From Meiothermus sp. (lineage in GTDB: Bacteria; Deinococcota; Deinococci; Deinococcales; Thermaceae): a DNA stretch of 63,165 nucleotides. Of the stretch, positions 1 through 62,446 are shown piece after piece. The stretch is taken from the NCBI RefSeq assembly GCF_025056915.1, contig NZ_JANWVH010000004.1, forward strand, positions 1 to 63,165, written 5' to 3'. Positions within the stretch are counted from its first letter, which is position 1, and every line of letters begins with the position of its first letter. Position numbers and translations under genes: made by a program. Below the pieces are notes generated by a model, which saw nothing but the letters and a program-made list of their open reading frames with translations, made no database searches and was not told the origin of the DNA.

Positions 1-121
1 CAAGTTTCTGCGTTGCGTCTGGGCCAAGACGCATGTTTTCGAGTTTCCAGGCCGCCACTGTTCTGTTCAGAACCAGGTTTTCTCGAACTCGAGTGGCGCA
101 CAATCTGTGAAGAGCGCCCTA
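1..121 (-). repeat. MITE-like interspersed repeat, copy 1 (cut by window edge)
   Basis: Reverse-orientation copy of the element found seven more times in this window. It ends with the conserved terminal motif TGTGAAGAGCGC (one change) followed by TA. It contains the internal palindrome around GTTCTGAACAGAAC and the hairpin GCGTCT/AGACGC. The other end lies outside the window. No reading frame is conserved among the copies, so it is treated as non-coding. The stretch from 122 to 327 holds no gene, only a possible hairpin (GAGCTGG / CCAGCTC) near 167-188. Confidence 0.9.
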
Positions 122-327
122 AATAAGCCATTGACTGCGCCGATGTCGAAAACATTGAGGTATTCGGAGCTGGTTCTGGAGCCAGCTCTGGTCGGCGTGC
201 ATCCCGAATAAGCGTCTCCACGATTGGAATGTCAGCACAAAGGATGCCAACTCCTGTGGGAATTGCACTCCTTCAATCCCCCCGAGCATCCCCCATGCGC
301 TGGATGACCAGCTGACCCTGGCGCAGC

Positions 328-2781
328 TCAGGCCCTGGCCACAGGCTGCACCTTGCTTCGGCGAACCTTCTTGGGTGGGGCGGCAACGGTTCGGCGCTCG
401 AGGGCCGCCATGCCCCCGACCAGCGCCCAGTCCAGGGCCTCGTCCAGGGTCTCGGCAAAGTGGAAGGAAAGGTTCTGGCGCAAGTAGGCTGGAATGTCCG
501 AGAGGTCGGGTTGGTTCTGCTTCGGCAGAATCACCTCGCGGATGCCCGCCCGGCGCGCCCCCAACACCTTTTCCTTGACCCCTCCAATGGGCAGCACCCG
601 CCCGGTGAGGGTAATTTCGCCGGTCATGGAAACGTCGTTCCGCACCGGCACCTCGGCCAGAGCCGAGACCAGGGCGGCGGTGATGGCAATCCCCGCCGAG
701 GGGCCTTCCTTGGGCACCGCGCCCGCCGGCACGTGGATGTGCACATCGGAGTTATCGAACTTTTCGAGGGCAATCCCAAAGCGCTGGGCGTTCTTCTTGG
801 CATACGAAAGCGCCGCCCGCGCCGACTCTTTCATCACTTCACCGAGCTGCCCGGTCAGGATCAGGTTGCCCTTGCCCGGCATGGCCGAGACTTCAATGAA
901 CATGATGTCGCCCCCCACCGGGGTGTAGAACATGCCGGTTGCGACCCCTACCTGCGGGGTTCGGGCCTCGGACTCGGGCTGGAAGCGGGCCGGGCCCAGG
1001 TATTTTTCCAGGTCGCTATCGGTGATGCGAACACGCTTTTTGCCATGTTCCAGGATGGCCCGGGCCGACTTGCGCAACAAAGCCCCAATCTCCCGCTCGA
1101 GGTTGCGCACCCCGGCCTCGCGGGTGTAGTGGGTAATCAGGCGCATCAAGGCCGCTTCGCTGACCACCACCTGCTTCTCCTTCAGGCCGTTTTCCGCAAG
1201 CTGGCGGGGCAACAGGTAGCGCTTGGCAATCTCGAGCTTTTCCTGCTCGATGTAGCTGGTAAACTCAATCAGCTCCATGCGGTCAAACAGCGGCCCCGGA
1301 ATGTTCTCGGGGAAATTGGCCGTGCAGATGAAGAGCACCTCGCTCATGTCGAAGGGCACACCCAGGTAGTGGTCGGTGAACTCCTTGTTCTGCGCGGGGT
1401 CGAGAAGCTCGAGCAAGGCCGCGGCGGGGTCGCCCTGGTAGGAGGCACCCAGCTTGTCTACTTCGTCCAGCAAAATGACGGGGTTCTTACTGCCGGCCTG
1501 GCGCATCCCCTGGATGATGCGGCCCGGCATGGCCCCAATGTAGGTGCGGCGGTGTCCGCGGATGTCGGACTCGTCGCGGGCCCCTCCCAGCGAGATGCGG
1601 TGGTACTTGCGGCCCAGGCTCTTGGCGATGGACTTGGCAATGGAGGTCTTGCCCACCCCCGGCGGCCCTACAAAAAGCAGGATGGGCCCCTTGGAGACCT
1701 CCTCGAGGGGAATCTCGCCATTTTTCTGTCGCTCCAGCTTGAGCTTGCGAACCGCCAGGTACTCCAGCACCCGATCCTTGACCTTTTCCAGGCCGTAGTG
1801 ATCCTCATCCAGGATTCGCTTGGCCTCCTTGAGGTCAATCTGGTCTTCGGTGCGGGTATTCCAGGGAAGGTTGGTAATCCAGTCCAGGTAGGTGCGCACC
1901 ACGCTGGCCTCGGCGGAGTCGGGGTGCATCCGGGCAAAGCGCGATAGTTCCCGCTCCACCTCGCTCAACACGGCCTGGGGGAGCTTGAGGGCCGCAATTT
2001 TCTCGCGGAACTCCTCCACCTCCATCTCGCCCTCTTCACCGTGCAGCTCGCGCTGGATGGCCTTCATCTGCTCGCGCAGGTAGAACTCCCGCTGGTTCTT
2101 GTCGATTTCCTCCTTGACCTGCTGCTGGATGCGGCGCTGGGTCTCGATCAGGTCGAGCTCCGCGTCCAGCAGGATGGCGATGCGCTTGAGGCGATCCACC
2201 ACCGAGGGGGTCGCCAGGATTTGCTGCTTGTCCTCCAGTTTGAACTCGAGGTGGAAGGCGATGTAGTCGGCCAGCTGGGAGGGGTCCTCGAGGTTCATTA
2301 CGAACTGGGCCGCCTCCGGCGAGAGGTATTTGCCCTCCTTCAGCAGGTTCTCAAAACGTTCCTTAACCTCGCGGAACAGGGCCCGCACCTCGGTGGGCTT
2401 GCCCTCCACCTCGGGCAACCGCACCACGCGGGCCTCGAGGTAGCCATCGGCCCGACGGTACGCCTGAACCTGTACCCGGGCAAAGGCCTGCACCAGCATC
2501 TGCACCGAGCCGTCGGCGTTTTTGCGCATACGCAGGACATTGCAGGCCGTGCCCACCTCATACAGGTCGTCGGCGCCGGGCTCCTCGACTTCCTTGTCGC
2601 GCTGGCTCACAATCAGGATGACCCGCTCCTGGGCCACCGCGGCATCAATGGCCCGAATCGAGATCGGACGGCCTGCATCAATCGGCATGACCATACTCGG
2701 ATAAATCACCGAGCCCCGCACCGGGCAAACCGGCAGGGTATCGGGAAGGTGAGTATTGGGCTTATCGGTTCGTTCGCTCAT
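328..2781 (-). CDS. lon: ATP-dependent protease Lon (LonA type)
   Basis: Cytoplasmic AAA+ serine protease that unfolds and degrades damaged and regulatory proteins. The protein is 817 aa, the usual bacterial Lon length. Visible parts are an N-terminal substrate-binding LON domain (about 15-205), a coiled-coil linker (about 210-250), Walker A GPPGVGKT at 372-379, Walker B VILLDE at 435-440, and a C-terminal protease domain with catalytic Ser695 (EGPSAG) and Lys738. The spacing of 43 residues matches the known Ser-Lys dyad. An upstream in-frame extension exists but lacks Lon homology. The ATG at 2781 is preferred because it follows GGGGAA and starts the conserved N-terminus. The gene is divergent from the DUF1517 gene. 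Confidence 0.97.
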
Positions 2782-2930
2782 CGGGATTCCCCATCTGTTA
2801 GGCAAGTTTACAACCTGGAACTCTTCTAGCCGGAGGTGTGGTTGAGAAGCACAACGTGCCTGAATGAGTCTATCATTATCAAGTTTAGTGATTCTAGAAA
2901 TAGCAATGAGAACCTTCGACACAATAACGT

Positions 2931-3932
2931 ATGCTGATACTGATGAGATTTGCCGGGCTTTGGGTATTGCTGCTGCTGTGGGCGCTGGCCCCCTTGCCTG
3001 CCGAGACCGCGGGGATGCGCACGGCCTGGCCGGGTTTGAATTCCGCCCTGGCCCAGCGCAGCGGCGGCGGCGTGGGAGGCCGGGGTGGATTCTCGGCACC
3101 CCGCTCCCCCTCCATTCCCAGGGTCAATCCCTCGCCCTCGCCTTCCCTGCCCCTCCCAACCCCCCGGAGCTACCCCTCCTACCCCACCTACCCCCGCGAC
3201 TACTTTCCACCGGGTTATCCCACCTACCCCAGCACCCGCCCGCCCATCTACATCAATCCGGGCACCGGCTATGGGTTCGACCTGGTGGCCCTGCTCTTTA
3301 TTGGAGGCATCCTTCTGGTGAGCTTTTCCATGATTCGGGGACTGCAAAGGGCCGGAACCGACGGCGCTTTGGCCGGGGAGCCCGAGAGCACGGTAGCCCG
3401 GCTCCGGCTGGCCACCCTGTTCACCCCAGCGATGCAGGCCAGCCTGCGCCACATCGCCGAGGCCGCCGATACCGAGAGCGTGCGGGGTCTGGCCGACCTG
3501 ATGGACAACGCCGCAGTGCTGTTGTTGCGGGATCAGGCGGGCTGGCGGTTTGGGATGTATGAGGTGTGGACCGGCAGCCTCCAGAAAGCCGAGGGGCAGT
3601 TCGATGCCTGGATGACCGAGACCCGCTCGGAGTTTGTGGAGACCTACCGGCACTTTGAGGGCAGGGAGGTTGTGCAGGCCGGCTACCAGCCCAAAGCCGA
3701 GCCCGATGGTCGCTACATTCTGGTCACGCTGCTGCTGGCGGTGAGCGGAAGCCTGCCGCCTGTGCCCACCCCTCTGCGGCGTGAGGGAGCACGGCAGGCC
3801 CTGATGGCCCTGGCCTCCTCGAGTGCAACCAACACCCTGGCCGCCTACATCGCCTGGACGCCGGAAGCCGAAGGCGAAGCCCTCACCGAGCAGGACTTGC
3901 TGCTGGGGTGGCCCAGGCTCGAGCTCCTGTAA
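2931..3932 (+). CDS. DUF1517-like membrane protein
   Basis: Protein of 333 aa of unknown function, resembling the DUF1517 family known from cyanobacteria and plastids. It begins with a signal-anchor (about 5-25), followed by a Gly/Arg/Ser stretch ([16 protein letters not shown]) typical of that family and a long Pro/Tyr/Ser-rich low-complexity segment. A transmembrane helix lies near 120-140, followed by a globular C-terminal domain of about 190 residues. A second ATG five codons downstream (2946) is an equally good start, since neither has a clear Shine-Dalgarno sequence. It is transcribed away from lon. Family assignment is from overall architecture; function is not known. Confidence 0.75.
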
Positions 3933-4108
3933 CTAAAGCTGGGGGTGCGCCCACCATGGCCGAATACCAGACCGCGCCTGGGGTGTATGGCAGGTGGGCT
4001 ACCGTAAGTCTGGATGGGCTGTGAAGCCGCCGAACGAACGCCTGAAAAGCCGCGGGGTTTTTGCGGAAGCCGCACCAGCAAAGCGTGCTCTGGACGGCCA
4101 CGTACCGC

Positions 4109-4128
4109 AAAAACCTGGCCCCCCAGGT
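4109..4128 (-). terminator. Rho-independent terminator of the peroxiredoxin gene
   Basis: On the minus strand a 6-bp stem ACCTGG/CCAGGT with a GGGG loop is followed by TTTTTG. It starts at the peroxiredoxin stop codon. Confidence 0.7.
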
Positions 4129-4598
4129 CACACGGACAACGCCTTGACCGCAGCGACCACCTCTTCGTACGGGGGTTCCTGGGCCGGCACCTCGGCCACC
4201 CAGGCCCAGGCAATGCGGCCCGTAGCGTCCACCACGTAGGCGGCCCGTTGCGAAAAGCCCGGCAGGCCGCGCAGGCTGATCTCGAGCCCAAAAGCGCGGG
4301 TGGCTTCCCGGTTGTAGTCGGATAGCAGCGGAAACGCCAGCCCAAGCGCCCTGGCGTAGGCCCCCAGGGTCCAGGGGGTGTCCACGCTGAGGCCATAAAC
4401 CTCTACCCCCAGTTGGTTATACTCGGCCAGGCCGTCGCGAAAGGTACACAGCTCCTTCTCGCAAACACGGGTGTGGGCCGCCGGGAAGAACAACAGCACA
4501 GCAGGCTTGTTCTGCACCAGTTGTGCCAGCGAGACGGCTTCCGCCGAGGTGTTGTAAACGGTGACATTGGGCAGTGAGTCTCCAAGCTGAATCGCCAT
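4128..4598 (-). CDS. Peroxiredoxin (AhpC/TSA family, BCP-like)
   Basis: Thiol peroxidase of 156 aa that should reduce hydrogen peroxide or organic peroxides in the cytoplasm. The thioredoxin-fold motif PxxxTxxC is present as P39-A-A-H-T43-R-V-C46, with C46 as peroxidatic cysteine. C51, five residues later, is spaced like the resolving cysteine of atypical 2-Cys BCP enzymes. The conserved active-site Arg is probably R110-118 region (not resolved by eye). The ATG at 4598 follows GGGGTG. A long upstream in-frame extension was rejected because it has no homology. It is a single-gene unit with its own terminator. BCP versus AhpE-like subfamily is not settled. Confidence 0.88.
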   Translation of the reverse strand: MAIQLGDSLPNVTVYNTSAEAVSLAQLVQNKPAVLLFFPAAHTRVCEKELCTFRDGLAEYNQLGVEVYGLSVDTPWTLGAYARALGLAFPLLSDYNREATRAFGLEISLRGLPGFSQRAAYVVDATGRIAWAWVAEVPAQEPPYEEVVAAVKALSV

Positions 4599-4930
4599 AA
4601 CACCCCAAAGATAAACCAACGCGCCGGGTTGTGCGTCCAAAAATCGGGCAGGCAGGAGAAGGACACTCTTGCAGGGTGTCTTGCAAGAGCACTGGCCCAC
4701 ACGAGCGGTCGGGATGATGCAAGGCTGGGAATGCCCGGCTCCGCACCGGCGTATCGGGCGACATGGAAGGGTGCTGATGGCCCAGTGGGGGGGGTGAGTC
4801 TGGAACCAAGCGAAGCCGTTGGTTGGAGCCGATGCACGAACAGGAAGGCCAGGGGGCAGTGGCATATGGGCGAAAGCGGTGTCATCCCAAAGTCATGGCC
4901 GCCGAAAGTGCTGGATGCTAGGCTGGTCTC
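4599..4930. other. Divergent intergenic region, prx / CHAD gene
   Basis: No gene is supported in these 332 bases. A perfect 8-bp inverted repeat CTCTTGCA/TGCAAGAG lies at 4666-4689. It overlaps a competing stem GACAC/GTGTC, so two mutually exclusive hairpins can be drawn. A TAGGCT -10 box sits six bases before the CHAD start codon. Confidence 0.5.
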
Positions 4931-5641
4931 ATGTCGGCCATCGGTCTGAAACCCTGGCTCCAGCACCTGCTCGACCATCTGCCCATGGCCCGAGCAGGCC
5001 ACGACCCCGAGGGTGTGCATCAGGTGCGGGTGGCGGTACGCCGCTTGCGGGTGTGGCTGCGGCTGGCCGGAATGCGCGTGCTCGAGGACGACCTGGCCTG
5101 GTTGGTGCGAGCAGCGGGCCAGGTGCGCGATTTGGAAGTCTTGCTGCAACACCCCCACCTGCCCAGGGCTTTTCAAACCTGGGGTGAGCTTCGACTCAAA
5201 GAGGCCCGCCAGGCCTTCGTTCCCCTGCTGGAATCCCCCCGGCTGGCCGGTCTTTTGCAGGGCCTCTCCGTTTTGCCCCCGCTCGACCCAAAAGAGGCCG
5301 AGTCCCGGCTTCCACGCTTTGTGCAACAGGTCGAGCGCCGGGCCCAGGCGTGGCGTAACGAAGACAGCCTCGAGCACCTGCACGCTCTGCGTCGGGCGCT
5401 GCGGCGGTTGCGCTATGCGCTGGAGTGGCTCGAGCGAGACAGCGACCCCGTGAAGGCCCTTCAGGAGATTTTTGGACAGGTTGGCGATCTGAGTTTTACC
5501 CTGAATTACCTGTCAGCCTTCGAGGCCGAAGGAGGCCGGGCACCTGCCCGCTACCGCAAGCACCTCGAGGCCCAGCTTACCGAGGCCCTCGAGGCCGCCA
5601 AGCAGGCCTGGAACCACCATCAAGGCCGTCTGCGGCCCTGA
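4931..5641 (+). CDS. CHAD domain protein
   Basis: Protein of 236 aa made almost entirely of one CHAD (conserved histidine alpha-helical) domain. CHAD domains bind inorganic polyphosphate through conserved His and basic residues. The signature HQVRVAVRRLRVW lies near residues 29-41, and a second basic helical repeat (LHALRRALRRLRYALEWL) lies near 150-167, matching the internal two-fold repeat of the family. No CYTH or polyphosphate kinase gene adjoins it. The ATG is preceded by TAGGCT with a 6-base gap, so initiation is likely leaderless. Polyphosphate binding is inferred from the family. Confidence 0.88.
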   Translation: MSAIGLKPWLQHLLDHLPMARAGHDPEGVHQVRVAVRRLRVWLRLAGMRVLEDDLAWLVRAAGQVRDLEVLLQHPHLPRAFQTWGELRLKEARQAFVPLLESPRLAGLLQGLSVLPPLDPKEAESRLPRFVQQVERRAQAWRNEDSLEHLHALRRALRRLRYALEWLERDSDPVKALQEIFGQVGDLSFTLNYLSAFEAEGGRAPARYRKHLEAQLTEALEAAKQAWNHHQGRLRP

Positions 5642-5715
5642 GTTGGGCGCGCACCATTCCAAGAGCAAGCCAGGTCCAATGGCACAGGCTTCCCCGCGCT
5701 TCTGTTTTCCAACCC

Positions 5716-5854
5716 AGAGCGCTCTTCACATATGATGAGCCACTCGAGTTCGAGAAAGCCTGGTTCTGAACAGAACAGGGGCCGCGAAAACATGCGCCTC
5801 GGCCCAGGCGCATTCTCGTTTTGGTGGGCGGCCACGTCTGTAAAGAGCGCGATA
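5716..5854 (+). repeat. MITE-like interspersed repeat, copy 2
   Basis: 139-bp copy starting 75 bp after the CHAD gene. The left end is AGAGCGCTCTTCACA and the right end TGTAAAGAGCGCGATA, so one base differs within the 12-bp terminal repeat. It belongs to the medium-length form that lacks the segment around CAGACACTTGTCC. The left TA flank is CA here. Confidence 0.92.
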
Positions 5855-6006
5855 AGCGGTCGCTGGAATAGACCTCCACCCCACCGCGACCAAGCGAGGG
5901 CATGTCCTCCCTGCGCACAAAGCAAAACCCAGCCCCCTTCAAGATGGCGAGCAGAGCGAATCTCGCTGGGGTTGGCCGAACCAAGTCCAAACGGGCCAGG
6001 AGGCGC

Positions 6007-6035
6007 AAAAAAAGCCGGGGGGATTCCTCCGGCTT
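6007..6035 (-). terminator. Terminator of the rpsT-thx operon
   Basis: On the minus strand a GC-rich stem (AGCCGGAGG / CCCCCCGGCT with a short AAT-containing loop) is followed by seven T residues. It lies 16 bases after the thx stop codon. Confidence 0.85.
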
Positions 6036-6050
6036 GCCCTGAAGCGGTGC

Positions 6051-6131
6051 TTACTTCTTGCGGGGACGGTATTTGCCGTGGGTTCCGCGGAAAATTTTTC
6101 CACGGCGGGTGCGACGATCACCTTTTCCCAT
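6051..6131 (-). CDS. thx: 30S ribosomal protein Thx (bTHX)
   Basis: Tiny 26-aa basic peptide beginning MGKGDRRTRRGKIFRG and ending in HGKYRPRKK. It is nearly identical to the Thx protein of Thermus 30S subunits, which lies in a cavity at the top of the 30S head and stabilises the RNA there. The start codon lies nine bases after the rpsT stop, and an AGGAG Shine-Dalgarno sequence overlaps that stop codon, so the two genes are translated from one mRNA. A strong terminator follows. Too short for many gene finders, but the match is unmistakable. It is also called rpsU in some Thermus annotations. Confidence 0.96.
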   Translation of the reverse strand: MGKGDRRTRRGKIFRGTHGKYRPRKK

Positions 6132-6140
6132 GCTCGACTC

Positions 6141-6434
6141 CTAGGCTTTGGCTCCAGCCAGAAGCTGGTGAACCTTGCTCATCAGGCGCGACTTCCGGCG
6201 GCTGGCCGCATTCTTGTGTAGGGTTGAGCCTTTGGCCGCTTTGTCAATCAGGCTTTCGGCGTAGCGCATAACCCGGGTGGCCTCGGTCGCGTTGCCTTCC
6301 TTGGCCAGGGCTACGGCCTTCTTGCTGATGGTCTTGATGGTGGACATCTTGGCTTTGTTGCGGGCGCGACGCTTGAGCGACTGACGGTGGCGCTTGATGG
6401 CCGAGGGGTTGCGAGCGGTTTTTTTCTGTGCCAT
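6141..6434 (-). CDS. rpsT: 30S ribosomal protein S20 (bS20)
   Basis: Primary 16S rRNA-binding protein of 97 aa, rich in Lys, Arg and Ala and predicted to be all helical, as is usual for S20. It starts [19 protein letters not shown], with the conserved basic N-terminus. The ATG at 6434 has a GGAG Shine-Dalgarno eight bases upstream. The ATG four codons earlier lacks one and would add non-conserved residues. It is the first gene of a two-gene operon with thx. Confidence 0.97.
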
Positions 6435-6535
6435 AGTTCTCCACAATTGCCATGGATGGGCTGCGACGAAAAAAGGCAGCCTCGAGGCAAACCGCTCACA
6501 AGTCTAGCATATGTGCGGCGGCTATGCCTAGACCC

Positions 6536-6919
6536 TCAGAATTCGTTGCGAGCCGCTACCCAGTCCATACGCACCTGACCCCGCGCATCCTTGAAACGGA
6601 ACACCACATCGTACAGGTTGGCATCGGCGGGGTAGCGAATTTCCTCGGCAAAGCGCCCCTGGTAGCGCTTGATCAGGCCGGGGCTGCTCTGGCCCGTGCG
6701 CCGAACCTCGACCTCGAAATGCCCCTGGCGCAAATCGCCGCTTACGGTCACCTTAATGAAAGCCCGAATGCCGGTGGCCCGAATCTGGTTGCGGGTTTCG
6801 CCGGTGTAGTTCCAGTAGTAAACCGGCGTAAAAGGCGCGTAGCCGATGGCCAGACCAAATCGCTCGGCGTAAAAGTACACCCCACCTGCAATCAGGGCCA
6901 GGAATAAAAGGGTTCGCAC
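6536..6919 (-). CDS. Membrane-anchored protein of unknown function
   Basis: About 127 aa. It has an N-terminal signal-anchor (RTLLFLALIAGGVYFYAERF) followed by a roughly 95-residue domain with alternating hydrophobic beta-strand-like segments (for example KVTVSGDLRQGHFEVEV, LYDVVFRF). I do not recognise the family. The GTG at 6919 is chosen because a TATACT -10 box lies six bases upstream. The longer in-frame extension runs into the tyrS promoter region and has no protein-like character. It is divergent from tyrS. Confidence 0.65.
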   Translation of the reverse strand: MRTLLFLALIAGGVYFYAERFGLAIGYAPFTPVYYWNYTGETRNQIRATGIRAFIKVTVSGDLRQGHFEVEVRRTGQSSPGLIKRYQGRFAEEIRYPADANLYDVVFRFKDARGQVRMDWVAARNEF

Positions 6920-6925
6920 CCCCCA

Positions 6926-6931
6926 AGTATA
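6926..6931 (-). promoter_or_regulatory. -10 box TATACT, leaderless promoter
   Basis: TATACT on the minus strand, six bases (TGGGGG) before the GTG start at 6919. Nearly the same string precedes tyrS on the other strand. Confidence 0.55.
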
Positions 6932-7100
6932 AAGCAAGTCCGGTTCGGTGACGGGGGCCACCCTGTCGTATCTACTGCGCCTTTTCCCCTCCTGGTTGCG
7001 AAGCCCGGTGCAGGGAACAAAAGCCGTTCTGAGGGATGGAAGATTGAGCAAACTGCATTTTGGGTTGCCCAGCCACCTGGATAAGTGTTGCAGGCCCTGA

Positions 7101-9022
<1,922 letters not shown>

Positions 9023-9026
9023 GCCC

Positions 9027-20197: not shown

Positions 20198-20430
20198 ACT
20201 TGAGGGCTATCCCTCTTTGGAATCTGTGGGCGTGTATGGGTATTTTCACGACCGTGTATTGTTCGCCTCTCACGACCAATGCCTTTCTTTATTGGTGATA
20301 GCCGCTCCCTTGCAGGGCCTTTGAAACAAAAATAGCGATGTGATTTATAGTCAAGTAAAGGTTTGGCGGCCTCAGGATGGGAAGTACACCTTCGTAATTC
20401 TTTCAAGGGTTGCTGGGTATGATGTCAGCA

Positions 20431-21459
20431 ATGCAAGAAAGCATTCTGGAGTATCGGCGAGAACAACGTATTCGCACCATTCTGGAAGCAATTCCCGACG
20501 ACTTGATGCTCGTCGATACGGAAGGCAACATCCGGGAGTACAAAGCGGGGAGCAGCCACCACCACCTGCCCATGGATCGCTTCCTGGGAACCACGCTGGG
20601 TGAGCTGTTTACCCCCGCCGTAACCCGCCAGCTTCAAGAGGCAATTCAAGCGGTACTCAACGGCGAGCCAACCTGCGTCATGGAGCTCAACCTGGAGGGC
20701 CGGGACTTTGAGGCCCGCATTGTCCCGATGCAGTCAGATACGGCACTGATTCTTTTTCGGGATGTGACCACCGAGCGGGAAGCCGAGCGCCTCAAATCGG
20801 AGTTTATCGCAGCGGTCTCCCACGAGCTCAAAACCCCTTTGGCCTCTATTCTGGGTTTTTGCGAGTTGCTGCTGGACGACAATTACAGTCCTTCAGAGTT
20901 CAGGGAGTATTTAGAAAACATCCAGCACAGCAGTCTTCGGTTGAAGGACATGGTCAACAACCTGCTCGACACCTCCCGCCTGGAAGCCGGTCGGTTTAGC
21001 ATCAGCCGACAGCCCATCGATTTACAGACGACCCTGGCCCAGACCGCCCGTAGCTTTGCCGGGGTGGCCAAGCTCAGCCAGATTCACTTCGTGTGCGAGT
21101 TCGACCCCCTACCCATCCTCGAGGCCGATCCGGAGCGCATCGAGCAGGTGGTGGGCAACCTGCTCTCCAACGCCTTCAAGTTCTGCCCCAGGCGAGGCAC
21201 TGTCTGGCTGCGGGCCAGGCCCCATGGGGGGGTGTTGCTCGAGGTCGAGGACACCGGCCCCGGCATCCCGCTGGAGGAACAGGGCCTGCTCTTCAGCCGG
21301 TATGGCCGCACCCGGAGCGCCATCTCGAGGGGCATTGTGGGTACGGGTCTGGGGCTTTACATCTCCAAGGCCATCGTAGAGGCCCACCAGGGGCGCATCT
21401 GGGTGGAGTCGCAGGAGGGACGTGGCGCAAAGTTCAGCGTGTGGCTGCCGCTTCAATAG
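20431..21459 (+). CDS. Soluble PAS-domain sensor histidine kinase
   Basis: 342-aa kinase with no membrane helix, so it senses a cytoplasmic signal. A PAS domain (about 15-112) is followed by a HisKA dimerisation domain with phospho-acceptor H131 (AVSHELKTPLASI) and a HATPase domain with N box (NLLSNAFKF), G1 (DTGPGI) and G2 (GTGLGLYI). No response regulator gene is adjacent. The ATG at 20431 has TATGAT seven bases upstream. Earlier ATG codons overlap that box. The TAG stop at 21457-21459 is formed by the first bases of a MITE-like repeat. Confidence 0.92.
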   Translation: MQESILEYRREQRIRTILEAIPDDLMLVDTEGNIREYKAGSSHHHLPMDRFLGTTLGELFTPAVTRQLQEAIQAVLNGEPTCVMELNLEGRDFEARIVPMQSDTALILFRDVTTEREAERLKSEFIAAVSHELKTPLASILGFCELLLDDNYSPSEFREYLENIQHSSLRLKDMVNNLLDTSRLEAGRFSISRQPIDLQTTLAQTARSFAGVAKLSQIHFVCEFDPLPILEADPERIEQVVGNLLSNAFKFCPRRGTVWLRARPHGGVLLEVEDTGPGIPLEEQGLLFSRYGRTRSAISRGIVGTGLGLYISKAIVEAHQGRIWVESQEGRGAKFSVWLPLQ

Positions 21460-21623
21460 AGCGCTCTTCACATATTGCGAGCCATTCGAGTTCAAGAAAG
21501 CCTGGTTCTCAAGAGAACAGTGGCGGCCTGGAAACTCGAAAACATGCCTCTCGGCCCAGACGCAACGCAGACACTTGTCCCTTCTCGTGTTTGTGGGCGG
21601 CCACGTCTGTGAAGCGCGCGATA
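21457..21623 (+). repeat. MITE-like interspersed repeat, copy 3 (full length)
   Basis: 167-bp copy, the longest seen, flanked by TA on both sides. The left terminal sequence GAGCGCTCTTCACA starts inside the stop codon of the histidine kinase gene. The right end reads TGTGAAGCGCGCGATA. Internal features are TTCGAGTT/AACTCGAA arms and the CTCGGCCCAG hairpin region. Confidence 0.93.
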
Positions 21624-24262: not shown

Positions 24263-24413
24263 TAGAGCGCTCTTCACAATATTAGGAACCATTCGAGTTC
24301 AAGAAAGCCTGGTTCTGAACCGAACAGTGGCGGCCTGGAAACTCGAAAACATGCGTCTCGGCCCAGATGCATTCTCGTTTTCGTGGGCGGCCACGTCTGT
24401 GAAACGCGCGATA
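24263..24413 (+). repeat. MITE-like interspersed repeat, copy 4
   Basis: 151-bp copy with TA on both sides. The left end is GAGCGCTCTTCACA and the right end TGTGAAACGCGCGATA. It is the medium form, lacking the segment with CAGACACTTGTCC, as in copy 2. It ends 19 bases before the arsN2-like gene. Confidence 0.93.
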
Positions 24414-35916: not shown

Positions 35917-36072
35917 TATCGCGCTCTTCACAGACCTCCGCACACGAAAACGAGAAGGGACAAGTGTCTGCGTTGCGTCTGGGCCGAGACGCATGTTTTC
36001 GAGTTTCCAGGCGGCCACTGTTCGGTTCAGAACCAGGCTTTCTTGAACTCGAATGGCTTGAAGAGCGCTCTA
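35917..36072 (-). repeat. MITE-like interspersed repeat, copy 5
   Basis: 156-bp copy in reverse orientation with TA at both ends. It carries the segment with CAGACACTTGTCC in reverse but lacks the GGCGGCCAC arm, which is present in most other copies. Confidence 0.92.
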
Positions 36073-45977: not shown

Positions 45978-46135
45978 TAGAGCGCTCTTCAAGCCATTCG
46001 AGTTCGAGAAAGCCTGGTTCTGAACAGAACAGTGGCCGCCGGGAAACTCGAACACATGCGTCTCGGCCCAGACCCAACGCAGACACTTGTCCCTTCTCGT
46101 TTTCGTGGTCGGCCACGTCTGTGAAGAGCGCGATA
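45978..46135 (+). repeat. MITE-like interspersed repeat, copy 6
   Basis: 158-bp copy with TA on both sides. The left end is GAGCGCTCTTCA and the right end TGTGAAGAGCGCGATA. It is the long form. The rest of the gap 45825-46386 holds no gene apart from a TACAAT -10 box near 46330 ahead of the NYN gene. Confidence 0.93.
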
Positions 46136-54915: not shown

Positions 54916-54926
54916 AAGCGTGACCC

Positions 54927-55031
54927 AGAGCGCTCTGCCCATATTATGAGCCATTCGAGTTCGAGAAAGCCTGGTTCTGAACACAACAGTGGCCGCCTGG
55001 ATGGGCGGCCACGTCCGTGAAGAGCGCGATA
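54927..55031 (+). repeat. MITE-like interspersed repeat, copy 7 (short form)
   Basis: 105-bp copy. The segment between the two arms GTGGCCGCC and GGCGGCCAC is deleted, leaving only TGGAT-type loop bases. The right end TGTGAAGAGCGC has one-base differences from other copies (CCGTGAAGAGCGCG) and is followed by ATA. The deletion junction matches that of copy 8. Confidence 0.92.
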
Positions 55032-55212
55032 AGGCCAAAAGCCGAGGGCTCAAAGGCTTTCAAAGCACACCGCAAAGCAGTTTTCCCGCCCCTGAAGCTC
55101 GACCTGAAGCAGCTTCACTGGCTCGAGCGATGCAACCTTACACCCGCTTTCATTCAACGCATTTGCGGCAGAAACTATACAAAGCGTCATATTTGCAGGG
55201 TAGACTGGTGGG

Positions 55213-56430
55213 GTGAACAACCTCGAAAGCTATTATCAAAGCCGCTTTGCCGCCCGAACCCAGCGCATCCAGGCCTCGACCATCCGGGAAATCCTGAAGC
55301 TCACCACCCAGCCCGGTTTCATCAGCTTTGCAGGGGGGCTGCCCGCCGCCGACCTGTTCCCCATCGAGCGCATCGCCGAGGCCACCCAGAAGGTGCTGAG
55401 CGAACACGCCGACAAGGCTTTACAGTACAGCACCACCGAAGGCTACCTGCCTTTGCGGGAGTGGATTGCAAGCCGGATGCCCGGCACCAGCGCTGAAAAC
55501 GTGCAGATTGTCTCGGGCTCGCAGCAGGGGCTCGACCTGATGGGCAAGGTCTTCATTGACCCCGGTTCTAAAATCCTGGTTGAGGCCCCCACTTACCTGG
55601 GGGCGCTGAGCGCCTTCAACCCCTATGAGCCTCAGTACATCTCGGTAAGCATGGACGAGGAGGGGCTCCGGCTCGACGAGCTCGAGGCCGCCCTCAAGAC
55701 CCACCGTTTCCGCTTCATGTATGTGCTGCCCACCTTCCAGAACCCCTCGGGCCGCCTGATGGGCCTGGAGCGCCGCAAGGCCATCGTGGAGCTGGCCCGC
55801 CACTACCAGACCCCCATCCTGGAAGACGATGCCTACGCCGAACTCTACTTCAGCGGCGAACCCCTCCCCACCCTCTACGCCCTCGACCAGGCCTTGGGTG
55901 GGGGCAACGTGGTCTACCTCTCCACCACCTCCAAAACCCTGGCCCCAGGGCTCAGAGTGGCCTGGGTGGTGGGGCCCAGGCCGGTCATCCAGAAGATTGT
56001 GTACGCCAAACAAGGGGCCGACCTGCACTCCCCCACCCTCAACCAGATGCTGGTCTACGAGCTGGTGCGCGAGGGCGACTGGTACCGCGCCCAGATTGAA
56101 CAGATTCGCCAGACCTACCAGACCCGGCGCACCTGGATGCTGGAGGCCCTGCAAAAGTACATGCCCGAAGACATTGGCTGGATTGTGCCGCAAGGGGGGA
56201 TGTTCTTCTGGCTCACCGCCCCTCAGGGCCTCGACAGCCTCGAGCTGCTCAAGCAGGCAGTGGAAGAGAAGATGGCCTTCGTGCCGGGCCAGCCCTTCTA
56301 CGCCGATGGCAGCGGCCAGAACACCCTGCGACTTTCGTACTCGAGCGCTACCCACGAGCAGATTGAGGAAGGCATCAAGCGCCTGGGCCGGGCGGTGCAC
56401 AAAAGGCTGGGACGGGAGCCGGTGGTGTAG
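55213..56430 (+). CDS. lysN: LysN-like aminotransferase (2-aminoadipate / multi-substrate)
   Basis: 405-aa fold-type I PLP enzyme closely resembling Thermus LysN, which transaminates 2-oxoadipate in lysine synthesis through aminoadipate. Shared stretches include RIQASTIREILKLT, ISFAGGLPAADLFP, LQYSTTEGYLPLR and KQGADLHSPTLNQMLV. The PLP lysine is in TTSKTLAPGLRVAW. The start is GTG with TAGACT six bases upstream. No other lysine genes are nearby, so it may also serve other amino acids. Confidence 0.87.
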   Translation: MNNLESYYQSRFAARTQRIQASTIREILKLTTQPGFISFAGGLPAADLFPIERIAEATQKVLSEHADKALQYSTTEGYLPLREWIASRMPGTSAENVQIVSGSQQGLDLMGKVFIDPGSKILVEAPTYLGALSAFNPYEPQYISVSMDEEGLRLDELEAALKTHRFRFMYVLPTFQNPSGRLMGLERRKAIVELARHYQTPILEDDAYAELYFSGEPLPTLYALDQALGGGNVVYLSTTSKTLAPGLRVAWVVGPRPVIQKIVYAKQGADLHSPTLNQMLVYELVREGDWYRAQIEQIRQTYQTRRTWMLEALQKYMPEDIGWIVPQGGMFFWLTAPQGLDSLELLKQAVEEKMAFVPGQPFYADGSGQNTLRLSYSSATHEQIEEGIKRLGRAVHKRLGREPVV

Positions 56431-56492
56431 CCTGGGGTTTTTACATCAATTGTCGGGAAGGGAAAGATTTGCCGCCCGATTTGTGCGTGTAA

Positions 56493-56498
56493 TACAAT
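56493..56498 (+). promoter_or_regulatory. -10 box of the mrp operon
   Basis: TACAAT lies 134 bases before mrpA. Unlike most promoters in this window, it leaves a long transcribed leader. Confidence 0.55.
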
Positions 56499-56504
56499 GA
56501 TGTA

Positions 56505-56580
56505 AAGTTTGCTGCTCAGGCAGCAGGAGCGCAGCCTCCGGTAGCTGCAAGGGTGGAGACGGTCAACGGTCTCCGCTCTT
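56505..56580 (+). ncRNA. Structured 5' leader of the mrp operon, candidate riboswitch
   Basis: GCAGC at 56520-56524 can pair either with GCTGC at 56511-56515 or with GCTGC at 56544-56548. The second choice encloses an inner stem GGAG/CTCC (56526-56529 and 56536-56539). A separate 6-bp hairpin GGAGAC/GTCTCC (56555-56560 and 56569-56574) is followed by GCTCTTTGTT. Mutually exclusive pairing before a Na+/H+ antiporter operon suggests a cation-sensing riboswitch, for example the Na+-I (DUF1646) class. I cannot check the consensus. Confidence 0.5.
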
Positions 56581-56631
56581 TGTTATGTCAGGGTAAACTA
56601 TGCGGCGTCGGTTTCGTTCTGGAGCTCGAGG

Positions 56632-58908
56632 ATGATTCTCGCTGTAACATCGGCTTTTTTGGGTGCGCTGCTGGCGCCGTTGGTGTACCGCTGGCTGGGC
56701 CAGCTGGCGGGCTGGGGCCTGGCCCTTTTACCGCTGGGCCTTACGGTGTACTTCGCCAGCCTGCTGCCTACCGTGGTTGCAGGCGAAACGGTGCGGCACA
56801 GCGCGGCCTGGGTGCCCACCCTCTCGGTCAACTTTTCCTTTTACTTAGACGGGCTTTCGCTCCTGTTCGCCCTGCTCATCACGGGCATCGGCACCTTCAT
56901 CGTCATTTATACCGGCGGCTACCTGAAGGGCCACCCCGATCTGGGCCGGTTCTACATGACCATCCTGCTCTTCATGGCCTCCATGCTGGGCCTGGTGCTG
57001 GCCGACAACATCGTGACCCTGTTTGTGATGTGGGAGCTGACCAGCCTGACCTCCTACCTGCTGATCGGCTTCAACCACACCGAGTTCCGCTCCCGCCGCG
57101 CCGCCACCCAGGCCCTGTTTGTCACGGCGGGGGGTGGGCTGGCCCTGCTGGCCGGGCTCGTTTTGCTGGCCGGGATGGGGGGCTCGTGGGAGATTTCCGA
57201 GCTGCTCGCCAAGGGCGAGGTGCTGCGGGCGCATCCGTGGTACCTGGGTGCGCTGGTGCTGGTACTCGTGGGTGCCTTCACCAAATCGGCCCAGTTCCCC
57301 TTCCACTTCTGGCTGCCCAACGCCATGGAGGCGCCCACCCCGGTCTCGGCCTACCTGCACTCGGCCACCATGGTCAAGGCCGGGGTGTATCTGCTGGCCC
57401 GACTCCAGCCCGCTTTAGGCGGCACCGAGGTCTGGAGCAGCACCCTGATGGCCTTCGGGCTGGCCACCCTGCTCACCGGGGCCACCCTCACCTTCCGCCA
57501 CACCGACCTCAAGCGGCTTCTGGCCTATTCCACGGTGGCCGCGCTGGGGGCGCTGGTGTTTGCGATTGGGCTGGTGCCCCTCACCAGCTACTACGGGGCG
57601 GTAGGGTTTGCCACCTTCCTGCTGGCCCACTCGCTCTATAAGGGGGGGCTCTTCATGGCGGCGGGGGCGGTGGACCACGAGGCGGGCACCCGCGACATCA
57701 ACCAGCTCTCGGGCCTCTTTCGGGTGATGCCCATCACAGGGGTGGCGGTGGGGCTCTCGGCCCTGTCGCTGGCCGGGCTGCCGCCGGTGCTGGGCTTCAT
57801 CGGCAAGGAGGTGCTCTACCTGGCCGCCTTGCAGGCCGCGCCAGCCTGGATAATTGGGCTGGCGGTGCTGGGCTTTGCGGTGGGGGCGACCCTGGCCCTG
57901 ATCCTCACGGTGCCCTTTTTCCGCGGCCAGCCCCCCACCGGGGTGCACGAGGGGCCCCCGAGCCTCTGGCTGGGGCCCGTGGTGCTGGCGGGGCTGGGCC
58001 TTTTGGTGGGGCTTTTCCCTGGGCTTTACAACCCCCTGGCCGACGCCGTGGCCAGCGCGGTGAAGGGAGCGCCCACCAGCTACCACCTGAAGCTCTGGCC
58101 GGGCTTCAATCCGGCCCTGCTTCTGAGCCTGCTGACGGTGGCGGTGGGGGTGGGGCTTTACTTCGTCTACCCACGCCTCCAGGCCTGGATGGCCCAAGAC
58201 CCCCTCCCCGGCCCCGAGAACGCCTATGTGGCTTTGCTGCGGGGGCTTTTGCGGCTGGCAGCGCGCCTCGAGCAAACGCTGCAAAGCGGCTCGCTGCGGG
58301 CCTATTTGGTCTGGGTTTTTGCAGGCCTCTCCGGGCTGGTGGGGCTGGCCCTGTGGCGGGGCGGCCCCTTTAGGTGGCCCGGCGAAACCTCCGCTCTGAG
58401 CCCGGCCCAGCTGGTGCTGGTGGCCCTGATGCTTTTGGGAGGGCTGCTGGTGCTGCGGCTGCGCTCGCACCTGGCGATGGTGGTGGTGGCGGGCATTGTG
58501 GGGGCCGGGGTGGCGCTGTTGTTCCTGCTGCAAAACGCCCCCGACCTCTCGATTACCCAGTTTTTGGTCGAGACCCTGACCGCCATCCTGATTGCCCTGG
58601 TGCTGCTGCAAATCCGCAACATCGGCGAGGTGCCCCGGGGCCGCTGGCTGGACAAGCTGGTGGCGCTCTTGTTTGGCGGCCTGGTGACCGTGCTGATGCT
58701 GGGGATGCTCTCAGAGCCCATAGAGCTGCACCTGACCCAGTTTTTCGCCGAGAAGAGTCTGCCCGAGGGATTCGGGCGCAACATCGTGAACGTGATTCTG
58801 GTGGACTTCCGGGGGCTCGACACCTTCGGCGAGATTACCGTGGTGGGGCTGGCCGGCCTGGGGGTCTATGCCCTCTTGAAGCGCCTGCGCCGGGAGGAGA
58901 AACCGTGA
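56632..58908 (+). CDS. mrpA: Na+/H+ antiporter subunit MrpA
   Basis: 758-aa membrane protein related to NuoL of complex I. The proton channel motifs are [17 protein letters not shown] (Glu near 125) and [17 protein letters not shown] (Lys near 248). The C-terminal part (about 590-755) is the MbhD/MbhE-like extension normal in MrpA. The ATG follows GGAG with a 7-base gap. It is the first of seven genes that overlap or nearly touch. Confidence 0.95.
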
Positions 58909-59330
58909 ACACCCTCATTTTGAAAACCACCTCGAGGTTCCTCTTTACCCTGTTGCTCTTGCTTTCGGTCTTCTTGCTGCTGCGCGGCCACAACGAGCCG
59001 GGCGGGGGCTTCATCGGGGCGCTGGTGGCGGTGGGGGCCTATGCGCTCTTTGCCCTGGCCCACGGGCTTACGGCGGCCCGCAAGCTGCTGCCCCTGCCCC
59101 CCTTGCGGCTGGTGGGCTGGGGCCTGCTGGTGGCCCTGCTGAGCGCGCTGGTGGCCTTCTTCCTGAATAAACCCCTCATGACCGGCGTCTGGTTCAGCCT
59201 GTTGGGGGTAAAGGTGGGCACCCCGGTCATCTTCGATATCGGGGTCTATCTGACCGTGTTTGGGGCGCTTCTGTCGGCCATTTTTGGCCTCGAGGAGACC
59301 GCCGACCGCACCCCCGAGGAGGCCCCCTGA
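58905..59330 (+). CDS. mrpB: Na+/H+ antiporter subunit MrpB
   Basis: 141-aa membrane protein with four helices and the family motif [16 protein letters not shown] (near 27-42). The GTG start at 58905 overlaps the mrpA stop (GTGA) and has GGGAGGA upstream. The stop shares one base with the mrpC start. Confidence 0.95.
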
Positions 59331-59722
59331 TGGAAACCTGGATGGCCTTGTTAGTGGGCGGCCTGAGCGCGGTGGGGGTTTACCTGATGCTAAGGCCCCA
59401 CCTGATTCAGTTTTTGATTGGCTTTCTGGTGCTGGGCAACGCGGCCAACCTGCTAATTTTCACCTCCGGTCGGCTGGGCAGCGCGTTCCCGCCGCTGGTG
59501 CAGCCGGACGGCACGGTGCTGGCACCCTATGCCAACCCCCTGCCCCAGGCCCTGATTCTGACCGCCATCGTGATTGGCTTCGCCTTAGCGGCTTTTGGCA
59601 TCGTGCTTTTCTTCCGGGCCGAGCAGGTCTTGAAGACGCTAAACGCCGAGGCCATGCCAGAAAGGCTCGAGGCCGCCCCCGCCCCCTCGCCGGTGGACGA
59701 GGTACGGGAGGAGCGGGCATGA
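59330..59722 (+). CDS. mrpC: Na+/H+ antiporter subunit MrpC
   Basis: 130-aa NuoK-like protein with three helices and the conserved stretch LVLGNAANLLIFTSGR and DPLPQALILTAIVIGFA-type segment (here NPLPQALILTAIVIGFALA). The C-terminal tail is hydrophilic (about 105-130). The stop overlaps the mrpD start by four bases. Confidence 0.95.
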   Translation: METWMALLVGGLSAVGVYLMLRPHLIQFLIGFLVLGNAANLLIFTSGRLGSAFPPLVQPDGTVLAPYANPLPQALILTAIVIGFALAAFGIVLFFRAEQVLKTLNAEAMPERLEAAPAPSPVDEVREERA

Positions 59723-61197
59723 GCTGGCTGATTGTCCTCCCTCTGCTGATTCCCCTCACCACCGGCATTCTGTGCCTGGTGCTGGGGAGCCGCTCCGCTC
59801 AGCGGGTGCTGGGCCTGGTGGGGGCGCTGGGCCTGCTGGCTGCCGCCCTGGCCCTGCTCAGCCAGGTCAACCAGCGGGGCATCCAGGCGGTACAGGTGGG
59901 CAACTGGCCCGCGCCCTTCGGCATCACCTTCGCAGCCGACCACCTCTCGGCGCTGATGGTGCTGGTCAGTGGGGTGGTGGCGGTCGTGGTGGCCCTCTAT
60001 GCCTTAGCCGAGGGCGACACCCCCCGCGAACAACAGGGCTACTACGCCCTGAGCCACCTTTTGCTCTTTGGGGTCAACGGGGCCTTCCTCACCGGCGACC
60101 TCTTCAACCTCTACGTCTGGTTCGAGGTGCTGCTGCTTTCCTCCTTCGTGCTGATGATTCTGGGAGGTAGCAAGGCCCAGCTCGCGGGGGGGGTTAAATA
60201 CTTCGCGGTCTCGCTCCTCTCCTCGATTCTGTTTCTGGTGGCGGTGGGCCTTCTGTACGGGGCTACCGGGGCTTTGAACATGGCCGACCTGGCCACCCGG
60301 GTAGGCTCGCTCGCGCCGGGCCTGCGCGACGGGCTGGCCATGCTCTTCCTGGGGGCTTTCGGCCTCAAGGCGGCAGTGTTTCCCTTCTTCTTCTGGCTGC
60401 CGGCCTCCTACCCCGCCCCGCCCGTCATCATCTCGGCCCTGTTTGCCGGGCTTCTGACCAAGGTGGGGGTGTATGCGCTGCTGCGGGTCTTCACCCTGCT
60501 CTTCACCCAGGACACCGCCTTCACCCATACGGTCATCCTCTGGGTAGCGGGCCTTACCCTGCTTCTGGGGGTGCTGCTGGCCCTGGCCCAGGGGGAGCTA
60601 AGGCGGCTGCTTTCCTTCCAGCTGGTGAGCCACATCGGCTATATGCTGATGGGCCTGGGCATCCTGACCCCACTGGGCCTGACCGGCTCGGTGTTTTATG
60701 CCCTCAACCACATGATTGTGATTGCCGCTTTGTTCCTGCTGGCGGGGCTTTTAGAGCGCCTGCAGGGCACCACCGTGCTGGTGCGGATGGGCGGGCTGTA
60801 CCAGAGCCACCCCTGGCTGGCGGTGCTCTTCTTGCTGCCGGCTTTCTCGCTGGCCGGGCTGCCGCCTTTCTCGGGCTTCTGGGCCAAGTTCACGCTGGTG
60901 GCGGCGGGCCTGCAGGCCGGGCAGTACGCCATTGTGGCGGTGGCCCTGCTGGTGGGCCTCTTGACCCTGCTCTCGATGGGCCTGGTGTTTGCCGAGGCCT
61001 TCTGGAAAAACCCGCCCAGGCCCCTGGCTGGCACCCCAACCCCGCCGGGGCTGGGGGTGCCGGTGGCGCTGTTGGCCCTGCTCGCCCTGGGCCTGGGGCT
61101 GTGGGCCGAGCCGCTTTTAGCCCTCTCGCAAAGGGCGGCGCAGGAGCTGCTCGAGCCCAGCCGCTATATTGAAGCCGTACTGGGGGTGAGCCGATGA
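59719..61197 (+). CDS. mrpD: Na+/H+ antiporter subunit MrpD
   Basis: 492-aa NuoM/NuoN-like membrane protein with about 14 helices. Key residues are Glu in LYVWFEVLLLSSFVLM (near 137) and Lys in LFAGLLTKVGVYALLRV (near 240). The ATG at 59719 (MSWLIVLPLLIPL) overlaps the mrpC stop. The longer in-frame extension lies inside mrpC and is rejected. Confidence 0.95.
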   Translation: MSWLIVLPLLIPLTTGILCLVLGSRSAQRVLGLVGALGLLAAALALLSQVNQRGIQAVQVGNWPAPFGITFAADHLSALMVLVSGVVAVVVALYALAEGDTPREQQGYYALSHLLLFGVNGAFLTGDLFNLYVWFEVLLLSSFVLMILGGSKAQLAGGVKYFAVSLLSSILFLVAVGLLYGATGALNMADLATRVGSLAPGLRDGLAMLFLGAFGLKAAVFPFFFWLPASYPAPPVIISALFAGLLTKVGVYALLRVFTLLFTQDTAFTHTVILWVAGLTLLLGVLLALAQGELRRLLSFQLVSHIGYMLMGLGILTPLGLTGSVFYALNHMIVIAALFLLAGLLERLQGTTVLVRMGGLYQSHPWLAVLFLLPAFSLAGLPPFSGFWAKFTLVAAGLQAGQYAIVAVALLVGLLTLLSMGLVFAEAFWKNPPRPLAGTPTPPGLGVPVALLALLALGLGLWAEPLLALSQRAAQELLEPSRYIEAVLGVSR

Positions 61198-61673
61198 GGG
61201 CCTTCGTCTACAACGTGGTGCTGACGGTGTTCTGGATGCTGGTGACGGAGAGCTTTACCCTCTCCAACTTTCTGGTGGGCTTCGCCCTCTGCTTTTTGAT
61301 TCTGCTCCTGGCCCGCCCCCTCTTCGATGCCCCCTCGAGGCGCTACTTCACCCTGGCCTGGAAGCTGCCCCGCTTTGGGGCCCTGATGCTCTGGGAGATT
61401 GTGCTCTCGAGCCTGCGGGTGGCCCAGGCCGTGCTCTCGCCCCGCCTGTCCATCAAGCCGGGCTTCATCGCCTACCCCCTGACCGTCAAAAGCGACCTGG
61501 AAATCACCCTGCTGGCCAACCTGATCACCCTCACCCCCGGCACCCTGAGCTTAGACGTCTCCACCGACCGCAAGGTGCTCTACGTGCACGGGATGTTTGT
61601 GGACGACCCCCAGGCCGTCATCCAGTCCACCCACGACAGCCTGGAAAAAGCCGTACTGGAGGTGACCCGATGA
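61194..61673 (+). CDS. mrpE: Na+/H+ antiporter subunit MrpE
   Basis: 159-aa membrane protein with two to three N-terminal helices and a cytoplasmic domain containing NLITLTPGTLSLDVSTDRKVLYVHGM, typical of MrpE. The ATG overlaps the mrpD stop by four bases, and its stop overlaps the mrpF start. Confidence 0.95.
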   Translation: MRAFVYNVVLTVFWMLVTESFTLSNFLVGFALCFLILLLARPLFDAPSRRYFTLAWKLPRFGALMLWEIVLSSLRVAQAVLSPRLSIKPGFIAYPLTVKSDLEITLLANLITLTPGTLSLDVSTDRKVLYVHGMFVDDPQAVIQSTHDSLEKAVLEVTR

Positions 61674-61936
61674 GCTTTCTGGAGGGAGCCTTGCTGGCTT
61701 TGACCCTGACCCTGCCCTTCGCGGTGTACCGCCTGGTCAAAGGCCCCACCCTGCCCGACCGGGTGGTGGGCCTCGACCTGATTACCTCGGTGGCGGTGGC
61801 CATGGCCGCGCTGTACGCGCTACTGAGCGGCCAGACCGCCTTTTTAGACGTGGCCATCGCGCTGGCTTTATTCGCCTTTCTGGCCACGCTGGGCCTGGCC
61901 CGCTACATCGAGTACCGGGGCCACAAAGGAGACTGA
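61670..61936 (+). CDS. mrpF: Na+/H+ antiporter subunit MrpF
   Basis: 88-aa protein with three helices and the signature LVKGPTLPDRVVGLDLI (near 21-37). The start overlaps the mrpE stop by four bases. Confidence 0.95.
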   Translation: MSFLEGALLALTLTLPFAVYRLVKGPTLPDRVVGLDLITSVAVAMAALYALLSGQTAFLDVAIALALFAFLATLGLARYIEYRGHKGD

Positions 61937-61938
61937 GC

Positions 61939-62322
61939 ATGATAGAGTTGCTGGTCTATGCGCTGGTTGCCCTGGGAATCTTCTTTCTCCTGGTTGCGGC
62001 CATCGGGGTGGTGCGGATGCCCGACCTCTACAACCGGATGCACGCCACCTCCAAGGCGGGTACGTTGGGGGTGGGCCTGATTCTGGTGGCGGTGGCGGTG
62101 TTCTATCAGGAGCTCTCGGTGGCGGCCCGGGCGCTGTCGGCCCTGGCCTTCATCATCCTGACCGCGCCGGTGGCGGCCCACGCCCTGGGCCGGGCGTCCT
62201 ATCTTTCGGGTGTGAAGCCCTGTGAAGACACCTATATTGACGAGCTGGCCGGGCACTACCAGAAAAACCACAAGCTCGAGTCGGTGGACAAGACCACGCC
62301 CTCGAGCCCCACGGAGTCTTGA
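61939..62322 (+). CDS. mrpG: Na+/H+ antiporter subunit MrpG
   Basis: 127-aa protein with three helices and the signature IGVVRMPDLYNRMHATSKAG (near 20-39). It closes the canonical mrpABCDEFG order. A MITE-like repeat starts 20 bases after the stop, and its hairpins may act as the transcript end, since no separate terminator is seen. Confidence 0.95.
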   Translation: MIELLVYALVALGIFFLLVAAIGVVRMPDLYNRMHATSKAGTLGVGLILVAVAVFYQELSVAARALSALAFIILTAPVAAHALGRASYLSGVKPCEDTYIDELAGHYQKNHKLESVDKTTPSSPTES

Positions 62323-62341
62323 GAACGGCTGTGACTGGGCC

Positions 62342-62446
62342 TGTCGCGCCCGTCACAGACGTGGCCGCCCATCCAGCCGGCCCCTGTTCTTTCAGGACAA
62401 AGCTTTCTCATAGTCGAATGGCTCTAGATATGTGAAGAGCGCTCTA
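62342..62446 (-). repeat. MITE-like interspersed repeat, copy 8 (short form, diverged)
   Basis: 105-bp reverse copy with the same internal deletion junction (CTGGATGGGCGGCCAC on the minus strand) as copy 7. It is more diverged than the others; the TA at one end is TG. The conserved TGTGAAGAGCGCTCTA end is intact. Confidence 0.9.

Follow-up and report, generated by a model that had tools for sequence, protein, structure and literature searches.

Eight copies of one element in a Meiothermus contig

What is the short, foldable repeat that stands at eight places in a single contig of Meiothermus sp., and how did it come to be there? The window, i.e. the whole stretch of DNA analysed, is the entire contig C136 with a length of 63,165 nucleotides. 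A sequence-only reading of it had proposed eight copies of a MITE-like element flanked by TA, and all eight were found at their places in the window. Strands are given below in the left-first orientation, that is, with TAGAGCGCTCTTCACA first. Full copies with TA at both ends are located at 21457-21623 (+ strand, 167 bp including both TA), 24263-24413 (+ strand, 151 bp), 35917-36072 (- strand, 156 bp; the relatives G005 and G015 lack both this copy and its spacer) and 45978-46135 (+ strand, 158 bp). Hence the statement that TA flanks both sides in four of the seven complete copies holds. The copy at 5716-5854 (+ strand, about 140 bp) has CA on its left and TA on its right. Two short forms of 105 bp carry no inner hairpins: one starts at 54926 or 54927 and ends at 55031 (+ strand; left CA, right TA), and the other lies at 62342-62446 (- strand), with TA only at the left end and CA, seen as TG on the + strand, at the right. 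The copy at 1-121 (- strand) comprises the left end, the core and part of hairpin H2. As the window starts within it, this copy was cut by the assembly.

The 12-bp inverted-repeat ends described earlier are valid as a consensus, but none of the seven complete window copies has both arms exact. When three mismatches were allowed, the 12-mer was not above chance in the window (52 found, 61 expected). With at most one mismatch, the 12-base end occurred 350 times in the 3.02-Mb assembly, compared with 4 times for the reversed control.

Copy number and distribution

A covariance model built from 40 own copies was used to search the own genome at E <= 0.1. The earlier extrapolation to hundreds of copies per genome is plausible, but the count reached is at least 141 matches, 15 of them partial and several at contig ends, with 150 of 2019 candidates scored. 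Several contigs of the assembly end within element copies. The copies are short (35-282 bp without nested foreign repeats), and the consensus, translated in two frames, revealed no long open frame. Many-copied and devoid of a transposase gene as known TA-target MITEs are, the repeat is a short mobile gene-free DNA, now present at well over a hundred sites of this heat-loving bacterium. Over 77 full own copies the mean identity to the consensus was 92%. The closest copy reached 97.5%, and by this measure of identity to the consensus the own genome gave no sign of present activity.

A search of 61 genomes, run with stricter filters than the own-genome search, returned matches in 16: 13 of the 18 genomes of the genus (own included) and 3 of 19 others of the family. 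Some genus genomes had merely one or two weak matches. None of the 14 genomes (2.1-2.4 Mb) of one other genus of the same family and none of the 24 genomes of order-level relatives gave a match. The one named genome matched in a pattern scan was an uncultured Meiothermus MAG. The 26-base core had no match in the named genomes searched. Literature searches within open-licence papers yielded no description of a Meiothermus repeat of this kind.

Ends and modular structure

Beyond the 12 bp the two ends differ, the left reading TA-GA-GCGCTCTTCACA and the right, read inward, TA-TC-GCGCTCTTCACA. TA bordered 81 of the 103 left ends modelled in own copies and 62 of the 81 right ends. Positions outside the TA were near background, so the boundary is sharp. 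Of the non-TA ends, 25 of 41 were TG or CA, and two copies have one TA in common at C44:9944-9945. As a raw frequency, the base after TA was a purine in 44 of 53 cases. The terminal repeats also pair: 92.7% of the end-stem cells were paired in 24 short forms.

The copies fall into length classes of 35-39 bp (the two ends alone), 61-62, 90-107, about 150, 167, 188-198, 238 and up to 282 bp. The 90-107 bp class consists of the ends and a core stem, GTGGCCGCC/GGCGGCCAC; the class of about 150 bp has in addition a hairpin that we named H2 (TGCGTCT/AGACGCA); and the 188-198 bp class has gained a further hairpin, either H3 around GCCTCACC/GGTGAGGC or H1 (H1, H2 and H3 are names coined in this analysis). 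The inner symmetric parts noticed earlier are therefore real, but they form separable modules rather than one fixed fold, and 105-bp copies do without any inner hairpin. Within the listed elements the modules gave 145, 108, 66, 31 and 10 matches, respectively. Modules as separate repeats were considered and dropped: 11 module matches were found outside the listed elements, and by eye these lay in decayed or truncated copies.

Empty sites in relatives

The comparison with relatives covered 15 own copies: all seven complete ones of the window, plus eight from L158 (contig C99) and L177 (contig C127). Both flanks could be mapped in at least one relative for 12 of them, the exceptions being 5716, 62342 and L158 17352. 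Around these 12 copies, 36 of the 43 relative spacers gave no HMM match even at E 10, and seven held a copy. Most own copies examined are thus absent in relatives, and the copies are not confined to conserved orthologous positions, the pattern that the sequence-only reading had associated with a vertically inherited RNA.

The single-TA empty allele on which that reading had staked its proposal was present in G013 for the copy at 21457. Here the own sequence is GCTTCAA-TA-element-TA-GACCAAAGGCTCGA, and that of G013 is GCTCCAG-TA-GGCTAAAGGCTCGA. The left TA of the element and its first G form the TAG stop (21457-21459, + strand) of the ORF at 20410-21459; in G013, which lacks the element, this codon is TAG as well. 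At the 54927 site, the own sequence CGTGACC-CA-element-TA-AGGCCAAAAGC corresponds to TGCGGCC-CA-AGGCCAAAAGC in G013, and G003, G015 and G005 are likewise empty with CA and similar flanks, making four relatives in total. This insertion was precise to two bases, but CA in the relatives means that the element entered a CA site or that a base mutated afterwards. In sum, one clean empty site (21457) documents duplication of TA; the second precise empty site (54927) has CA, and the other mapped sites had diverged spacers. Duplication of TA would probably be the general rule.

Among the seven occupied spacers, the relatives' copies at L158 12639 (G015, G013) and 14689 (G015, G005) are oppositely oriented and hence represent different insertions. 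Near 24263, G005 has a remnant about 72 bp away, and HMM matches were obtained in G013 near 24263 and near L177 16959. G013 and G005 have no element at L177 13136, and their stop there is the same GAT TAG; for L177 16959 the stop of G005 and G015 is TGA, neither TAA nor TAG. A G003 copy (L167 12346) starts at a TAG that is common to G013, G015 and the window, which have no copy there, and its right spacer of about 65 bp differs. Common insertions were observed as well. That of G013 and G015 (L142, L143) is a short form in G015 and carries an inner hairpin in G013; its right flank is identical over the first 20 bases, and the left flank in G013 is interrupted by another repeat. That of G002 and G003 (L200, L070) has 12 bp of identical flank on each side, with another repeat nested in G002. 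G015 and G005 have in common a decayed copy whose core stem is broken.

Placement at stop codons

Genes were called by our own codon-usage script in 24 own stretches (511,070 bases, 442 genes, window included), which were partly picked for richness in copies. They contain 83 copies, 8 of which are at stretch edges. None of the other 75 lies within a called gene, which is weak evidence since a gene cut by an insertion loses its frame and the gene caller sees two pieces. The contexts of these 75 copies were convergent in 25, tandem in 40 and divergent in 10 cases, compared with 187, 1507 and 689 for non-coding TAs.

Where a left end faces the 3' end of a gene, it forms the TAG stop of that gene in 22 of 51 cases, as opposed to 0 of 30 for right ends. 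The remaining ends facing a 3' end were balanced, with 28 left and 30 right ends beyond the stop and one left end overlapping. In a larger locus set, a long GC3-rich frame was closed by 26 of 97 left ends, against 1 and 3 when the two alternative frames were counted; for right ends the number was 1 of 81. Entering the consensus right-first from a stop codon would lengthen the reading frame by 51 codons. Stop-codon TAs were occupied in 23 of 240 cases and other downstream-of-gene TAs in 53 of 1304, giving an odds ratio of 2.5. Part of this excess may stem from a bias towards TA-purine sites in general; the base after the right TA was a purine in 12 of 16 stop-codon copies and in 32 of 38 others, so that it did not separate the two groups. 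We interpret the stop-codon bias as the outcome of selection among insertion sites, with a contribution from the purine tendency after TA.

Covariation of the core stem

Base pairing was examined in 24 short forms from 10 genomes. They comprise 22 members of the 90-107 bp class, which numbers 28, and two other copies; six members of the class were omitted without a fixed rule. In the core stem 93.9% of the cells were paired, compared with 84.2% after shuffling, and 15 cells with a change on both sides were counted against 3.9 in shuffled alignments; none of 500 shuffles reached 15. Slid controls gave 0-4 such cells. As 12 of the 15 cells came from two column pairs, few independent events are involved, and related sequences may exceed shuffles in this test even without structure. 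The end stem showed no covariation beyond shuffles in the same short forms. In 40 own copies, 7 pairs had changes on both sides (2.7 on shuffling; 4 of 500 shuffled sets reached 7), whereas slid controls gave 3-8, equal to the structure itself. One-sided changes in the 77 own copies were G-U versus A-C in ratios of 10:23 for the core stem and 14:21 for H2; the end stem gave 45:17, but two positions supplied 26 of the 45. Compensatory changes, which had been named in advance as favouring an RNA, were therefore seen between species in one stem, but the own genome gave a slight excess with no consistent G-U bias.

Such covariation might have been produced by hairpin-templated (quasi-palindrome) correction, or by a need for the folded strand in transposition. 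The combination of a core stem that covaries between species with no consistent RNA-type bias within the genome agrees with this, whereas the origin of 12 of the 15 cells in two column pairs and the ease with which related sequences beat shuffles weigh against it. We regard this explanation, which is compatible with the MITE reading, as a tentative one with somewhat less than an even chance.

Transposase and mechanism

Empty sites and absent copies support the sequence-only proposal of a non-autonomous TA-targeting MITE, but its assignment to IS630 is putative. The PF13358 profile had matches in 14 of the 18 genus genomes and none in the own assembly (completeness 94%). Among 30 fetched IS630-type loci, several of them cut by contig ends, no transposase with matching ends was found: the best single-end matches had 4-7 mismatches in 16, and there was no symmetric pair of element sequence. 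As assemblies are incomplete, the absence of an autonomous IS630 element is not proof. End pairs in the fetched own stretches revealed no autonomous partner, nor did the end matches listed for 17 other genomes or the end sites listed for G013 (188 sites in total). Viral contigs contained two exact left-end matches, neither followed by the element core, and plasmids and phages contained no match. One copy, L284, holds transposase sequence; this fragment belongs to a different IS, whose ends approximate CCAAATCTCCC and GAGGTGACAC, and was therefore rejected as a partner.

A transposase of another type, for example an IS5-like enzyme using TA, could have moved the MITE, in which case the IS630 label would be wrong. 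The lack of PF13358 in the own assembly and of matching ends at all 30 fetched loci fits this idea. Against it, a 2-bp TA duplication and short inverted ends are typical of IS630/Tc1-mariner elements, and the source may be lost or unassembled, given the contigs that end in copies and the completeness of 94%. We therefore consider a non-IS630 enzyme unlikely. The repeat is very probably a family of non-autonomous cut-and-paste MITEs that insert at TA through a transposase supplied in trans, which is most likely an IS630/Tc1-mariner enzyme, with a placement shaped by selection. In Thermus, ISTth6 is listed as an IS630 element with 2-bp repeats in a table of PMC6352166.

By the proposed mechanism, a transposase in trans would recognise the ends TA-GAGCGCTCTTCACA and TGTGAAGAGCGCGA-TA, and the element would insert at a TA, often followed by A or G, and duplicate it. 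Insertions into genes or promoters would mostly be removed by selection. Surviving copies would be intergenic, chiefly in gaps towards which one or both adjacent genes are transcribed. Stop codons TAA and TAG would often offer a safe TA, entered in the left-first orientation, with TAG restored by the element itself. Within the ends, the core stem and optional nested hairpins would vary between copies as units. It seems quite improbable that the element goes further and is a modular folding transposon adapted to gene ends, whose hairpin modules are exchanged whole and nest in each other's loops, whose core stem co-evolves as the folded DNA on which the transposase acts, and which is guided into stop codons by a preference for TA plus purine.

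That the repeat is a structured RNA inherited vertically and maintained by selection on pairing, for instance one that stabilises or regulates transcripts from the 3'-UTR, can be given hardly any credence: three copies have stable predicted folds (z of -1.93, -3.67 and -2.66), the core stem covaries between species and many copies lie just downstream of genes, but relatives lack most of the mapped copies, the window has no match to curated Rfam families at gathering scores, no selection on the pairing of resident copies was detected in the 77 own copies or in the end stem of the 24 short forms, and the core stem is broken in the decayed copy common to G015 and G005. The core stem does covary between species, but own copies show no consistent RNA-strand bias, which disfavours a conserved RNA.

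Comparison with known repeats

Correia, RUP and BOX are close precedents for the Meiothermus element. Correia/NEMIS of Neisseria resembles it in its TA ends, in having two forms, of about 107 and 155 bp, set apart by 50 bp of internal sequence, and in transcripts with long stem-loops (PMC2229807); it differs in its 24-bp terminal repeats, which are those of another element, and the part of the account concerned with it gives no nested hairpin series. RUP of Streptococcus pneumoniae is likewise similar, being 107 bp long, present in 108 copies and targeted to TA, and IS630-Spn1 is proposed to move it in trans (PMC2229807). RUP has a known IS partner with matching ends, whereas none was found for the Meiothermus element. 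BOX of Streptococcus is also modular with a variable inner part and supplies the stop codon to 36 of 58 overlapping genes (PMC3049150). Its boxB modules are tandem copies of one unit and not different single-copy hairpins.

The ends of GTAG REPs often supply a TAG stop to flanking genes, according to the pertinent part of PMC3733652. Unlike the Meiothermus element, these are palindromes of 20-40 bp. To our knowledge, no TA duplication has been reported for them. ERIC/IRU/RU-1 is not known to be related to the Meiothermus element in host or sequence. It is similar in being intergenic, 127 bp long and bounded by TA, as given in the part of PMC2229807 that covers it.

For the genus, this high-copy, species-variable repeat offers a typing tool; it also breaks assemblies and records in nature which insertion sites are tolerated. 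With the orientation bias at stop codons (22 of 51 left versus 0 of 30 right), one can quantify how selection acts on insertion sites, and the module series provides a test of hairpin gain and loss in bacterial MITEs.

Enlarged composites in G013

The three contigs of G013 contain 188 end sites with at most one mismatch (control, 0). Among the ends listed, at least 13 pairs were 448-809 bp apart at different sites. Twelve of these 13 enlarged copies harbour another TA-flanked repeat, always nested at one and the same inner position; it points one way in five of them and the opposite way in seven, and 4 of the 12 contain a third repeat as well. The 14 longest pair alignments of composites were 97.1-98.8% identical over 382-616 bp. 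As they are so alike at different sites, the composites were apparently mobilised whole, although gene conversion may be an alternative.

Nested, diverged and possibly related repeats

Twelve of the 13 large copies of the main TA-flanked repeat in the related genome G013 (loci L282-L294) were found to contain a second TA-flanked repeat with GTGGTCTGGTAAC ends, which is nested at one inner TA and occurs in both orientations. In the unoccupied copies at L295 and L298, a single TA is present where this second repeat would sit. The same genome also harbors an IS630-type element, 1107 bp long and containing two reading frames, whose sequence is identical in L092 and L103 (741-1847 in both). Its ends read approximately CCAAATCTCCC and GAGGTGACAC, and the insertion is at TA.

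A diverged subfamily of the main repeat was observed at L065 and L077 of the relative G017, where both ends have changed together (TAGAGCGGTCTTCAT / ATGAAGACTGCGATA). This paired change suggests co-evolution with the subfamily's transposase. In another G017 copy, at L187, the right end differs and reads GAGTTATTATGAAAACTGCGATA, and the similar sequence GAGTTATTATGAAAAC adjoins the copy at L199; the two perhaps represent a related repeat family.

Relatives also contain a third repeat, likewise small and bounded by TACCRGATTC...GAATCYGGTA (L142, L200, L284, L289 and others). A search of 24 stretches of the own genome gave no exact match to either end.

Contigs of our assembly, e.g. C2, C10, C12, C32, C34 and C136 (the window), terminate within a main-repeat copy. 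Because contig ends fall within copies, the main repeat fragments short-read assemblies. At L062 of the relative G022, the inner hairpin H2 is inverted compared with other main-repeat copies.
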